From NCBI RefSeq assembly GCF_002159535.1, contig NZ_NFIU01000005.1, positions 1 to 64,000 on the forward strand: DNA of 64,000 nucleotides, in the 5' to 3' direction. The translations under genes and the position numbers were made by a program. This stretch comes from Olsenella sp. An290. GTDB taxonomy: Bacteria; Actinomycetota; Coriobacteriia; Coriobacteriales; Atopobiaceae. Under the pieces are notes generated by a model that worked only from the letters and a program-made list of their open reading frames with translations, was not told the origin of the DNA and made no database searches. Shown here in pieces: positions 1,394-5,997 of the stretch. Each line of letters begins with the position of its first letter. Positions within the stretch are counted from its first letter, which is position 1.

Positions 1394-2689
1394 ATGGATA
1401 TGTCACGTCGTAAGTTCCTGCAGGTCTGCGGCCTTGGTGTCATGGGCGTCGCGGGCGCGGGCGTGCTCGCCGGCTGCGACAACGGCGGTGAGACGACCCC
1501 GGCCGATGACTCCAACACCAGCGAGCCCACGGCCAACAACGAGAAGCCGGTCATCTTCTTCAACCGTCAGCCGTCCAACTCCACCACGGGCGAGCTCGAC
1601 ATGGCCACGCTCAACTACAACGACAACACCTACTACGTCGGCTTTGACGCCACGCAGGGCGGCGACCTCCAGGGCGAGATGGTCCTCACCTACATCAAGG
1701 CCCACGCCGCCGAGCTCGACCGCAACGGCGACGGCATCATCGGCTACGTCCTCGCCGTCGGTGACATCGGCCACAACGACTCCATCGCCCGTACCCGCGG
1801 CACCCGCAAGTCCCTGGGCACCGGCGTCGAGGTCGACGGCGCAATCAACTCCGAGCCCGTCGGCACCAACACCGACGGCTCCTCCACCATCGTCCAGGAC
1901 GCCAAGATTACCGCTGACGACGGCAAGGAGTACACGGTCCGCGAGCTCGCCTCGCAGGAGATGAAGAACCAGGCCGGCGCCACGTGGGACGCCGCCACGG
2001 CGGGCAACGCCCTCACCTCCTGGGCCTCCTCCTTCGGCGACCAGATCGACGTCGTCGTCTCCAACAACGACGGCATGGGCATGTCCATGTTCAACGCCTG
2101 GTCCAAGGACAACAACGTCCCGACCTTCGGCTACGACGCCAACTCCGACGCCGTCGCGGCCATCGCCGAGGGCTATGCCGGCACGATCTCCCAGAACCCG
2201 GCCGTCCAGGCCTACCTCACGCTGCGCCTGATCCGCAACATCCTCGACGGCGTCGACATCAACACCGGCATCGCCACCGAGGACGAGGCGGGCAACGTCA
2301 TCTCCGCCGACGACTACGTCTACAGCGAGGACGAGCGCTCCTACTACGCCATGAACCTCGCGGTCACCGCCGACAACTACCAGGACTTCATGGACTCCAC
2401 CACCCTCTACGCCACCGCGCAGAGCCAGCTCGACGAGTCCTCGAGCCCCAACAAGAAGGTCTGGCTGGACATCTACAACGCGGCGGACAACTTCCTGTCC
2501 TCCACCTACCAGCCGCTTCTCGAGAAGTACGACGACCTGCTCAACCTCACGGTGGAGTACATCGGCGGCGACGGCCAGACCGAGTCCAACATCACCAACC
2601 GTCTCGGCAACCCGGGCGAGTACGACGCCTTCGCGATCAACATGGTGAAGACGGACAACGGCGCGTCCTACACCTCGCTGCTCGGCTAA
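1394..2689 (+). CDS. mglB: Galactose/methyl-galactoside ABC transporter binding lipoprotein, apparently circularly permuted MglB
   Basis: The 431-aa precursor has a Tat-like SRRKFL motif (4-9) and a lipobox LAGC with the lipidated Cys at 28. After a short linker the mature protein begins at KPVIFFNRQPS (51-61), which matches the middle of E. coli MglB (about residues 85-95). The order then follows MglB: YYVGFD, a calcium-loop-like DRNGDGIIG (109-117), HNDSIARTR, SNND (223-226), FGYDAN (245-250), TISQNP, and NLAVTADNYQDF (321-332), which matches the normal C-terminus. Only then comes VWLDIYNAADNF (356-367)...AFAINMV, which is the normal MglB N-terminal strand with its sugar-binding DNF. Sugar ligands (N57, D129, R133, N225, D248, N268) appear retained. 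The length exceeds the usual ~330 aa. ATG at 1394 follows AGGA with 9 bases of spacing. Confidence 0.88.
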   Translation: MDMSRRKFLQVCGLGVMGVAGAGVLAGCDNGGETTPADDSNTSEPTANNEKPVIFFNRQPSNSTTGELDMATLNYNDNTYYVGFDATQGGDLQGEMVLTYIKAHAAELDRNGDGIIGYVLAVGDIGHNDSIARTRGTRKSLGTGVEVDGAINSEPVGTNTDGSSTIVQDAKITADDGKEYTVRELASQEMKNQAGATWDAATAGNALTSWASSFGDQIDVVVSNNDGMGMSMFNAWSKDNNVPTFGYDANSDAVAAIAEGYAGTISQNPAVQAYLTLRLIRNILDGVDINTGIATEDEAGNVISADDYVYSEDERSYYAMNLAVTADNYQDFMDSTTLYATAQSQLDESSSPNKKVWLDIYNAADNFLSSTYQPLLEKYDDLLNLTVEYIGGDGQTESNITNRLGNPGEYDAFAINMVKTDNGASYTSLLG

Positions 2690-2728
2690 GCCGTCCGATG
2701 CGGTCAATCCGCTGACAGAACGCCTTCG

Positions 2729-2760
2729 CAGGAGGGAGGAGGCTTTTCTCCTCCCTCCTG
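2729..2760 (+). terminator. Strong intercistronic hairpin between mglB and mglA
   Basis: A perfect 13-bp stem (2729-2741 and 2748-2760) with a six-base GCTTTT loop follows the mglB stop. No T run follows, so it probably protects or attenuates the message. That would give more binding protein than ATPase and permease. Confidence 0.6.
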
Positions 2761-2829
2761 TCACGTACCTACGGCGTCGCGCGGTTCTTCCGCTGCGCGC
2801 CCCTCCGTTTGCAGTAAGGGGTGATACAT

Positions 2830-4338
2830 TTGGCTGACAAGCAAGACGACATCATCCTCTCGATTCAAGGCATGAGCAAGTCGTTCGGACGCAACCGGGT
2901 CCTCAACCACATCGACCTCAACGTTCGCCGCGGCACCGTGATGGGCCTCATGGGCGAGAACGGCGCCGGCAAGTCGACCATGATGAACTGCCTGTTCGGC
3001 ACCTACCAGAAGGACGAGGGCACCATCCTCCTCGACGGCCACGAGGTTGCCTTCTCCGGGCCCAAGGACGCGCTCGAGAACGGCATCGCGATGGTTCACC
3101 AGGAGCTCAACCAGTGCCTGGACCGCAATGTCGTCGACAACCTGTTCCTGGGCCGCTTTCCCACCAACGCGCTCGGCATCATCGACGAGGGCCGCATGCG
3201 CAAGGAGGCCTCCGACCTCTTCCGTCGCCTCGGCATGACGGTGAACCTCACCCAGCCGATGCGCAAGATGTCGGTCTCCGAGCGCCAGATGTGCGAAATC
3301 GCCAAGGCGATCTCCTACAACGCAAAGGTCATCGTCCTCGACGAGCCCACCTCCTCCCTCATGAGCCAGGAGGTCGACAAGCTCTTCGAGATGATGCGCA
3401 TGCTCAAGAGCCAGGGGATCTCGCTCATCTACATCTCCCACAAGATGGACGAGATCTTCGAGATCTGCGACGACATCTCGGTGCTGCGCGACGGCGAGCT
3501 CGTCATGACCAAGCGCACCGAGGACACCAACATGAACGAGCTCATCTCGGCCATGGTCGGTCGCTCCCTCGACAACCGCTTCCCGCCGGTCGACAACACC
3601 CCCGGCGAGCCGATCCTCTCCATCCAGCACCTCTCCACCAAGTACGCGCCCAACCTCCAGGACATCACCTTCGACGTTCGCAAGGGCGAGATCTTCGGCC
3701 TCTACGGCCTGGTGGGCGCCGGGCGCACGGAGCTGCTCGAGACGATCTTCGGCATCCGCACGCGCGCGGCCGGCCGCGTCTACTTCCGCGACCACCTCAT
3801 GAACTTCAAGAACGCCCGCGAGGCCATGGACTACGGCTTTGCCCTCATCACCGAGGAGCGCAAGGCCAACGGCCTCTTCCTCAAGGGTGACCTGACGTTC
3901 AACACCACGATCACCAACCTGGGCCAGTACAAGTCCGGCCCCTCGCTCTCGCGCCCCAAGATGGTCAACGCCACCAACTCCGAGATCAAGACCATGCACA
4001 CCAAGTGCATGAGCCCCGACGACCTGATCTCGTCTCTCTCGGGCGGCAACCAGCAGAAGGTCATCTTTGGCAAGTGGCTCGAGCGCGGCCCGCAGGTCTT
4101 CCTCATGGACGAGCCCACGCGCGGCATCGACGTCGGCGCCAAGTACGAGATCTACGAGCTCATCATCAAGATGGCCAAGGAGGGTAAGACCATCATCGTG
4201 GTCTCCTCCGAGATGCCCGAGATCTTGGGCATCACCAACCGCATCGGCGTCATGTCCAACGGCCGCCTCTCCGGCATCGTCAACACCAAGGAGACGAACC
4301 AGGAAGAGCTCCTGCGCCTGAGCGCAAAGTATCTGTAA
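2830..4338 (+). CDS. mglA: Galactose/methyl-galactoside ABC transporter ATPase (tandem ABC domains)
   Basis: The 502-aa protein has two ABC domains, as in MglA/RbsA sugar importers, and energises uptake of the sugar bound by MglB. Domain 1 has Walker A GENGAGKST (42-50), a degenerate signature VSERQMCE and Walker B VIVLDEPTSS. Domain 2 has GLVGAGRTE, the signature LSGGNQQK and VFLMDEPTRGID. The start is taken as TTG at 2830 because AAGGGGTGA lies 6-8 bases before it, the same layout as at mglC (AAGGGGG, then ATG 7-8 bases on). A GTG at 2821 is possible but would overlap the ribosome site. The gene is 12 bases before mglC. Confidence 0.92.
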   Translation: MADKQDDIILSIQGMSKSFGRNRVLNHIDLNVRRGTVMGLMGENGAGKSTMMNCLFGTYQKDEGTILLDGHEVAFSGPKDALENGIAMVHQELNQCLDRNVVDNLFLGRFPTNALGIIDEGRMRKEASDLFRRLGMTVNLTQPMRKMSVSERQMCEIAKAISYNAKVIVLDEPTSSLMSQEVDKLFEMMRMLKSQGISLIYISHKMDEIFEICDDISVLRDGELVMTKRTEDTNMNELISAMVGRSLDNRFPPVDNTPGEPILSIQHLSTKYAPNLQDITFDVRKGEIFGLYGLVGAGRTELLETIFGIRTRAAGRVYFRDHLMNFKNAREAMDYGFALITEERKANGLFLKGDLTFNTTITNLGQYKSGPSLSRPKMVNATNSEIKTMHTKCMSPDDLISSLSGGNQQKVIFGKWLERGPQVFLMDEPTRGIDVGAKYEIYELIIKMAKEGKTIIVVSSEMPEILGITNRIGVMSNGRLSGIVNTKETNQEELLRLSAKYL

Positions 4339-4350
4339 GGGGGATCACAC

Positions 4351-5997
4351 ATGCCTAACGCAATTCTTACCGTTGAGGAGGAGCTGGCGCTGCGCAAGCC
4401 CATCGACGACTACGTCGGCGGCATCCAGGCCAAGGTCGACGCCCTCCGCGAGAACGGCACCACCCGCGTCGTCGCCCTCCAGGGCGAGATCGAGGCCACC
4501 AAGCGCGACAAGATCCTGACCAAGGCTGAGCGCGACCGCGCCATCTCCGGCTACCAGAAGGAGCTCTCCGAGGCCAAGGCCGTCGAGTCCAAGAACAAGG
4601 CCCAGGTCGACGGGCTCATCAAGGATGCCGTCACCTACCTTGGCGCCCACTATGACAAGGACTACCTCTCCCGCGTGAAGGCCTCCTGCGCCCAGGAGCG
4701 CGTGGTCGCCAAGGAGAAGTACGAGAAGAACCTCGCGCGCCTCGAGAAGGAGCACCAGTCCAACCTCTCCGGCCTCACGGACCACGCGGAGATCAAGGAC
4801 GAGAACTACGTCTACAAGAACCGTCGCTTCGACGCCAAGGTCGAGTACCAGAAGGACCTCCAGGCGGCCAAGGACCGCGAGCACGAGGCGTTCAGCTACC
4901 GCTATCACCTCATCGACATGCTGCGCCTCTCCAAGTTCACCCTCGGCGAGTCCCAGGCCCAGCGCTGGGAGAACTACAAGTACACCTTCAACACCCGTCA
5001 GTTCCTGCTGCGCAACGGCCTCTACATCGCGATCCTCGCGGTGTTCATCGCGCTGTGCATCGCGGCGCCGATCGTGAAGGGCACCCAGCTCCTCACGCCC
5101 GCCAACGTCCTCAACATCCTTCAGCAGGCCTCGCCGCGCATGTTCCTCGCGCTCGGCGTCGCCGGCCTCATCCTCCAGACGGGCACCGACCTCTCGATCG
5201 GCCGTATGGTCGGCATGGGCATGACCGCCTCCACGATCATCATGCACCAGGGCGTCAACACCGGCACCGTCTTCGGCGTCGCCTTTGACTTCACCTCCGT
5301 GCCCATCGTCGGCCGCATCATCCTGGCCCTGCTCGTCTGCGTGGTCCTGTGCGTCTTCTTTGCCACCATCGCCGGCTTCTTCACGGCCAAGTTCAAGATG
5401 CACTGGTTCATCTCCACGATGGCCAACATGCTGATCATCTTCGGCCTGCTGACGTACGCGACCAAGGGCGTCTCCTTCGGCTCCATCGAGCCCGCGATTC
5501 CCAACATGATCATCCCCAAGGTCAACGGCTTCCCGACGATCATCCTCTGGGCCGTCGCCGCGATCGCCGTCGTCTGGTTCATCTGGAACAAGACCACCTT
5601 CGGCAAGAACATGTACGCCGTCGGCGGCAACCAGGAGGCCGCGGCCGTCTCCGGCATCAACGTCTTCTGGGTCATGCTCGCCACGTTCATGATGGCCGGC
5701 GTCCTCTACGGCTTCGGCTCCTGGCTCGAGTGCATGCGCATGGTCGGTTCCGGCTCGGCCGCCTACGGCCAGGGCTGGGAGACCGACGCCATCGCGGCCT
5801 GCGTCGTGGGCGGCGTCTCCTTCACGGGCGGCATCGGCAAGATCTCGGGCGTCACGATCGGCGTGCTCATCTTCACCGCGCTGACCTACTCGCTCACCAT
5901 CCTCGGCGTCGACACGAACCTCCAGTTCGTCTTCTCCGGCGTCATCATCCTGCTCGCCGTCACGCTCGACTGCCTCAAGTACATCCAGAAGAAGTAG
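4351..5997 (+). CDS. mglC: Galactose/methyl-galactoside ABC transporter permease with long N-terminal coiled-coil extension
   Basis: The C-terminal ~330 residues of this 548-aa protein are a standard MglC/RbsC permease. The first membrane helix is at about 223-242, GTDLSIGRMVGMG at 278-290, and several more helices follow to the end. The first ~210 residues are extra: highly charged, rich in Lys, Glu and Ala (for example EIEATKRDKILTKAERDRA), with no membrane segment, and predicted by eye to be cytoplasmic coiled coil. E. coli MglC (336 aa) lacks this part. There is one cysteine in the extension (113). It is the last gene of the mgl operon and is followed by strong hairpins. Confidence 0.92.
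   Translation: MPNAILTVEEELALRKPIDDYVGGIQAKVDALRENGTTRVVALQGEIEATKRDKILTKAERDRAISGYQKELSEAKAVESKNKAQVDGLIKDAVTYLGAHYDKDYLSRVKASCAQERVVAKEKYEKNLARLEKEHQSNLSGLTDHAEIKDENYVYKNRRFDAKVEYQKDLQAAKDREHEAFSYRYHLIDMLRLSKFTLGESQAQRWENYKYTFNTRQFLLRNGLYIAILAVFIALCIAAPIVKGTQLLTPANVLNILQQASPRMFLALGVAGLILQTGTDLSIGRMVGMGMTASTIIMHQGVNTGTVFGVAFDFTSVPIVGRIILALLVCVVLCVFFATIAGFFTAKFKMHWFISTMANMLIIFGLLTYATKGVSFGSIEPAIPNMIIPKVNGFPTIILWAVAAIAVVWFIWNKTTFGKNMYAVGGNQEAAAVSGINVFWVMLATFMMAGVLYGFGSWLECMRMVGSGSAAYGQGWETDAIAACVVGGVSFTGGIGKISGVTIGVLIFTALTYSLTILGVDTNLQFVFSGVIILLAVTLDCLKYIQKK

Follow-up and report, generated by a model that had tools for sequence, protein, structure and literature searches.

The closest described relative of the binding protein analysed here is Tp0684 (TpMglB-2) of Treponema pallidum, whose structure was solved and reported as circularly permuted in 2016 (PMC4990184). 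According to that paper, Tp0684 binds glucose and changes shape, and its topology, for which the class Type Ic / Cluster Bc was proposed, also occurs in other treponemes and many Gram-positive bacteria; the criterion applied there is collinearity with Tp0684 over >90%, including a matching N-terminus. The class is further marked by an extended connector that makes a fourth crossing of the hinge; in Tp0684 a connector leads to the moved piece. Tp0684 is a lipoprotein encoded in an operon with an ATPase and a permease. In E. coli MglBAC, the binding protein has the canonical chain order, and MglC, at 336 aa, carries no extension.

We analysed a stretch of 64,000 nucleotides from Olsenella sp. 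An290 (contig NZ_NFIU01000005.1, positions 1 to 64,000), hereafter the window. We are highly confident that positions 1394-5997 constitute an mglBAC operon for a Type Ic (Tp0684-like) glucose/galactose ABC importer with a circularly permuted binding protein. The features of this region, with the evidence for each, are as follows.

1394..2689, + strand: mglB, circularly permuted glucose/galactose-binding lipoprotein, 431 aa (ORF, Pfam, collinearity with PDB 5jx2, hhalign, structure model)
1394..1477, + strand: signal peptide with Tat-like motif SRRKFL (residues 4-9) and lipobox LAGC (Cys28) (sequence; TIGR01409 below its cut-off; tatC in genome)
1538..2272, + strand: mglB residues 49-293, equivalent to EcMglB 83-282 (hhalign)
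2273..2449, + strand: mglB residues 294-352, end of the C-lobe and connector to the moved segment (between the two hhalign-aligned stretches; connector known in Tp0684, PMC4990184)
2450..2686, + strand: moved segment, mglB residues 353-431, equivalent to EcMglB 5-71; PF18610; sugar contacts D365 and F367 (Pfam, hhalign, contact alignment)
2821..4338, + strand: mglA, ABC ATPase, start GTG 2821 or TTG 2830 (ORF; ABC_tran in Pfam)
4351..5997, + strand: mglC, permease, 548 aa (ORF; PF02653 at residues 253-537; NF007014 from residue 214 on)
4351..4989, + strand: N-terminal helical extension of MglC, residues 1-213 (alignment A2, structure model, no Pfam family, co-occurrence)

The mglB ORF at 1394-2689 is uninterrupted and encodes 431 aa. 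In Pfam, Peripla_BP_4 matched residues 52-286, covering no more than positions 82-256 of its 258-position profile; PF18610 (Peripla_BP_7) matched residues 353-423 (E 4.1e-41; 139.4 bits vs a gathering cut-off of 36.8). The score against NF011924, the equivalog model of canonical MglB, was below the cut-off (102.4 vs 420 bits). We then compared by hhalign a profile of the permuted family (the window plus 80 loci) with a canonical profile (E. coli plus 20 Clostridia sequences), rows spanning under half of a segment having been removed. At full length this comparison gave two matches in swapped order, as had been anticipated: window residues 49-293 with EcMglB 83-282 (prob 99.9) and, as the second match, residues 356-421 with EcMglB 5-71 (prob 26.2). 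The chain runs like EcMglB from about residue 83 and ends with the counterpart of EcMglB 5-71, which agrees with the circular permutation put forward in the original prediction. Five further pairings of segments were compared: prob was 99.7 and 94.9 for the two that a permutation predicts, and 0.8 or less for the remaining three; the moved segment matched the canonical C-terminus or middle with prob 0.3. The original prediction had named a normal-order alignment as the result that would count against it, and between window residues 49-133 and EcMglB 1-85 there was none, 892 of 1000 shuffles being as good. A normal-order MglB is ruled out by the Pfam positions, the swapped hhalign matches and the same order across 80 loci.

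Comparison with Tp0684 (PDB 5JX2, 6BGC, 6BGD) showed the permuted order throughout the mature protein, at 43-45% identity. Window residues 49-429 of 431 aligned collinearly with residues 20-384 of the 387 in the 5jx2 chain (E 1.1e-90). The strands that open the N-lobe of the canonical protein (1-3) lie at the C-terminus (Pfam, hhalign), and the sugar contacts agree with the class. At the sequence level, a connector lies between the two hhalign-aligned stretches, and it may provide the fourth hinge crossing. An AlphaFold model of window MglB (mean pLDDT 76.4) superposed on Tp0684 (6bgc_B) with Z 39.5, 366 of 372 residues being aligned at 43% identity; the glucose/galactose-binding proteins of E. 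coli, Salmonella and similar proteins gave Z 16-17 over 221-228 residues, starting at their residues 50-78. Sequence profiles, together with a solved homologue that is collinear with it, show window MglB to be a natural circular permutant, and as such it is a further member of the family described in 2016 and not a discovery. The match to this solved permutant takes the place of a permutation-aware superposition on EcMglB. A Tat-like signal and an insertion after about residue 144 set window MglB apart from Tp0684.

The ten sugar contacts of EcMglB, taken from the list in PMC4990184, correspond in the window protein to D365, F367, N57, H127, D129, R133, W198, N225, D248 and Q267. Nine of these are the E. 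coli residues; the tenth, Q267, replaces N256 of EcMglB and is the residue found in Tp0684. At the position of E. coli Asp14, D365 retains the aspartate, unlike Tp0684, which has N311. Across the permuted sequences, all ten residues are conserved without exception (81 of 81). The claim that every recognisable sugar ligand remains, split across the new termini, was correct as to the split and as to nine of the ten residues, but not as to N256. The conserved residues, together with the published glucose binding of Tp0684, suggest that window MglB is functional. Because Tp0684 prefers glucose (PMC4990184), "galactose" is less sure than "glucose" as a name for the ligand of the window protein.

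The operon has the gene order mglB-mglA-mglC. It resembles E. coli MglBAC in this order, in the fold of the binding protein, in nine of the ten sugar contacts and in the ATPase and permease families, and it shares with Tp0684 a lipoprotein encoded beside an ATPase and a permease. MglC scored above the PF02653 cut-off (104.4 vs 26.8 bits), and both transporter proteins fell below the cut-offs of the canonical equivalogs (MglA, 644 vs 828 bits for NF008215; MglC, 265.7 vs 386 bits for NF007014). A galactose mutarotase gene and a LacI-type regulator gene lie downstream within the window. Between mglB and mglA, a stem-loop at 2728-2761 (13 Watson-Crick pairs plus G-U, -29.6 kcal/mol, z -5.6) perhaps sets the production of more binding protein than transporter. 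Anywhere in the locus, matches to an AraC-type response regulator were present in 51 of the 80 loci and matches to a histidine kinase in 52 (blastp, E 1e-30). Close to the permuted operon in two loci (L141, 9584-11644; L033, 1429-6813), the gene of a canonical-order binding protein lies near that of a dCache histidine kinase, accompanied in L033 by one for an AraC-type response regulator; in such an arrangement transport and sensing may be served by different binding proteins.

The 80 loci are the best 80 of at least 514 relatives confirmed among at least 597 matched stretches in a scan of species genomes. By their record titles they comprise 11 from Coriobacteriia (L018-L027 and L048), a remainder largely from Lachnospiraceae and other Clostridia, and single loci from Lactimicrobium, Enterococcus and one Bacteroidales MAG (L033, L075 and L092). 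The survey of homologues that had been suggested found the permuted order in all 80 public loci kept, and also in relatives and class members. PF18610 was detected in 12 of 60 relatives, all of the window's genus, in 20 of 236 Coriobacteriia genomes (7 of 107 genera), in 21 of 200 Lachnospiraceae, in 2 of 148 Clostridia and in 1 of 250 Bacilli, that one being the centre genome itself; these counts include the centre genomes, of which G060 and G061 were chosen as carriers and G000 is the window's own. Copies of the permuted operon were also found on an Agathobacter rectalis plasmid and on plasmid pTS2 of Treponema saccharophilum. Integrase and IS91 transposase genes lie no more than about 6 kb from the A. 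rectalis copy (L233, 1-2741) and may offer it a way to transfer. A search of viral contigs found no relatives.

The original prediction had also remarked on an unusual extension of the permease, and this was borne out: about 213 residues precede the first membrane helix of the 548-aa MglC. In the model, these residues form helices at 8-33, 37-52, 58-140 and 145-192, with block pLDDT of 84-92 for residues 11-190; the membrane part was modelled poorly (about 49-85 by block). The extension is well conserved, with a mean column identity of 66% in a 20-row alignment (A2). It belongs to no Pfam family, giving scattered weak matches (best E 0.0066, in 1 of 20 members), and its best PDB sequence match had E 0.035. 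When the whole MglC model served as query of a fold search, the top match, BtuCD, had E 0.019 and none reached 0.001; the extension taken by itself may still have a known fold. Our searches of openly accessible literature found no description of the extension, and in them "tp0686" occurred in PMC4990184 alone. The extension is probably cytoplasmic, given its charge, its position ahead of the first membrane helix and the general topology of such permeases.

A complete mglC ORF was present in 69 of the 80 permuted loci, and in every one of these 69 the ORF (516-574 aa) includes the extension. The other 11 comprise three cut by contig ends, six without mglC on the available contig, and two (L069 and L070) in which the extension and the membrane part occupy separate ORFs in a frameshift-like manner, which may reflect a sequencing error or decay. 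The shortest form, in L044 (9876-11423), has a shortened extension and 516 aa in all. The canonical control was drawn from 148 Clostridia genomes: of the 21 listed places with the best canonical MglB scores, we used 20. All 15 control loci with an MglC (328-367 aa) lacked the extension; like the window, these canonical mglBAC loci encode a lipoprotein MglB, and unlike the window, their binding proteins have the normal chain order. Four of the remaining five (L139, L140, L144 and L147) have no MglC in the stretch. The fifth, L141, holds a permuted operon with an extended MglC, the canonical binding protein lying about 4.6 kb further on, near a sensor kinase.

The genomes picked by the A2 profile of the extension (20 rows) were those picked by PF18610: 21 of 200 Lachnospiraceae, 20 of 236 Coriobacteriia and 1 of 250 Bacilli. 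At E 0.001, none of the 686 genomes in these three sampled groups was discordant; a further match in G735 was borderline (E 9.6e-4), and the match in G212 was split. On pTS2, the permuted mglB lies beside a 562-aa permease with a diverged extension, whose N-terminal 225 residues scored 39.9 bits against the A2 model (composition bias 24.8), compared with maxima of 3.2 bits in 500 residue shuffles and 15.5 bits in 500 heptad-block shuffles. A plasmid search with the single window sequence of the extension found only A. rectalis; the Treponema copy was missed, and a profile was required to detect it.

The pairing of the extension with the permuted MglB is a fact in the genomes checked; we hypothesize a functional link between the two. 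An alternative to which we give about an even chance is that the extension arose once in an operon with permuted mglB and has been co-inherited with it, as a passenger, without functional coupling. Both genes belong to one operon. Two trees, one built from MglA and one from the membrane part of MglC, each with 39 rows (the window, E. coli, 15 Clostridia loci of canonical type and 22 permuted loci out of the 80), separated permuted from canonical systems by one branch, 100/100. These trees are unrooted, that of MglC carries a flag for long branches, and joint inheritance is to be expected of genes in a single operon. With the permuted systems lying beyond one branch, the co-occurrence may count as one event. 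Against a mere passenger speak the lack of any discordant genome among 686, in counts that include the centre genomes, the strong conservation of the extension (mean column identity 66% over 20 rows) and its persistence in the Treponema plasmid operon. We suggest, tentatively and with somewhat more doubt than belief, that permuted-MglB systems form a subtype of sugar ABC importer in their own right, whose rearranged binding protein would be functionally coupled to a so far undescribed helical domain on the inner side of the permease; this domain, about 213 residues long, would be a regulatory or scaffolding element with a range from Treponema to gut Bacillota and Coriobacteriia.

We also considered export and anchoring of the binding protein. 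The mature protein had been predicted to start at KPVIFFNRQPS; its start is instead expected at Cys28, and it is the fold that starts at KPVIFF (from residue 51), after a linker of about 22 residues. The SRRKFL motif, a match to the TAT model TIGR01409 below threshold (14.4 bits vs a cut-off of 16.7) and a tatC gene in the window's genome indicate that window MglB is probably exported by Tat. Among the best 80 of at least 514 relatives, a Tat-like pattern occurs in 11 loci, the same 11 as are from Coriobacteriia. In five permuted proteins (L041, L046, L057, L083 and L084), a plain signal peptide takes the place of one with a lipobox cysteine. The hypothesis raised in PMC4990184 links the permutation to membrane tethering, and a lipobox was indeed present in 75 of the 80 permuted proteins (73 by pattern; L050 and L074 by eye). 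By the same pattern, however, 18 of the 20 canonical-order Clostridia MglB have one, including all 15 that adjoin a permease, and 5 of the 80 permuted proteins lack the cysteine. Because lipoproteins are so common among canonical MglB, tethering alone does not explain the permutation; the published hypothesis is weakened, and we consider such an adaptation unlikely.

As to the origin of the permuted order, PMC4990184 raised the idea that the moved piece derives from a different gene and acquired the shape of the MglB N-terminus by convergence, and gave 13% identity for these parts between Tp0684 and E. coli. The single-sequence comparison made here would be compatible with that idea, since the moved segment and EcMglB gave z 2.6, with 24 of 1000 shuffles as good, which is suggestive at most; a match this weak needed the family profile to support what had been seen by eye. 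With profiles, the moved segment alone matched canonical MglB 1-85 with prob 86.4 (E 4.7e-6) and a score of 33.3, against a mean of 10.8 (sd 2.3, maximum 22.2) for 100 column-shuffled profiles; against the full-length canonical profile it gave prob 67.3. The sugar-contacting D and F align correctly and are invariant in 81 of 81 sequences. The profile match favours common descent with the MglB N-terminus and makes an origin in another gene quite improbable. We infer that duplication of mglB, fusion and trimming may have given rise to the permuted gene; no intermediate came to light in this analysis. An assembly or gene-calling artefact that fused two pieces, for which no supporting point was found, is ruled out by the identical order in 80 public loci, in relatives and class members, and in the crystal structure of a solved homologue (5jx2).

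In the mechanism that we propose for the permuted importer, about the first 75 residues of the MglB ancestor (N-lobe strands 1-3) now form the C-terminus, joined through a connector. After export, for which Tat is the probable route here, the protein would be lipidated at Cys28 and tethered by a flexible linker, and it would close on the sugar using residues that come from both of the original termini. Sugar-loaded MglB would dock on an MglC dimer, and MglA would drive transport; conserved residues and family membership point to these steps of binding, docking and transport. In the genomes checked, MglC's helical extension always accompanies permuted MglB, with which it is inherited as one operon, and it may contact or regulate MglA.

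For the family described in 2016, the extended permease is a second marker part, and it is the pairing of permuted MglB with a conserved MglC extension that goes beyond PMC4990184. The common canonical-order lipoproteins and the few permuted proteins without the cysteine speak against the anchoring reason given in that paper. The pairing makes the reason why a natural permutation was kept testable.
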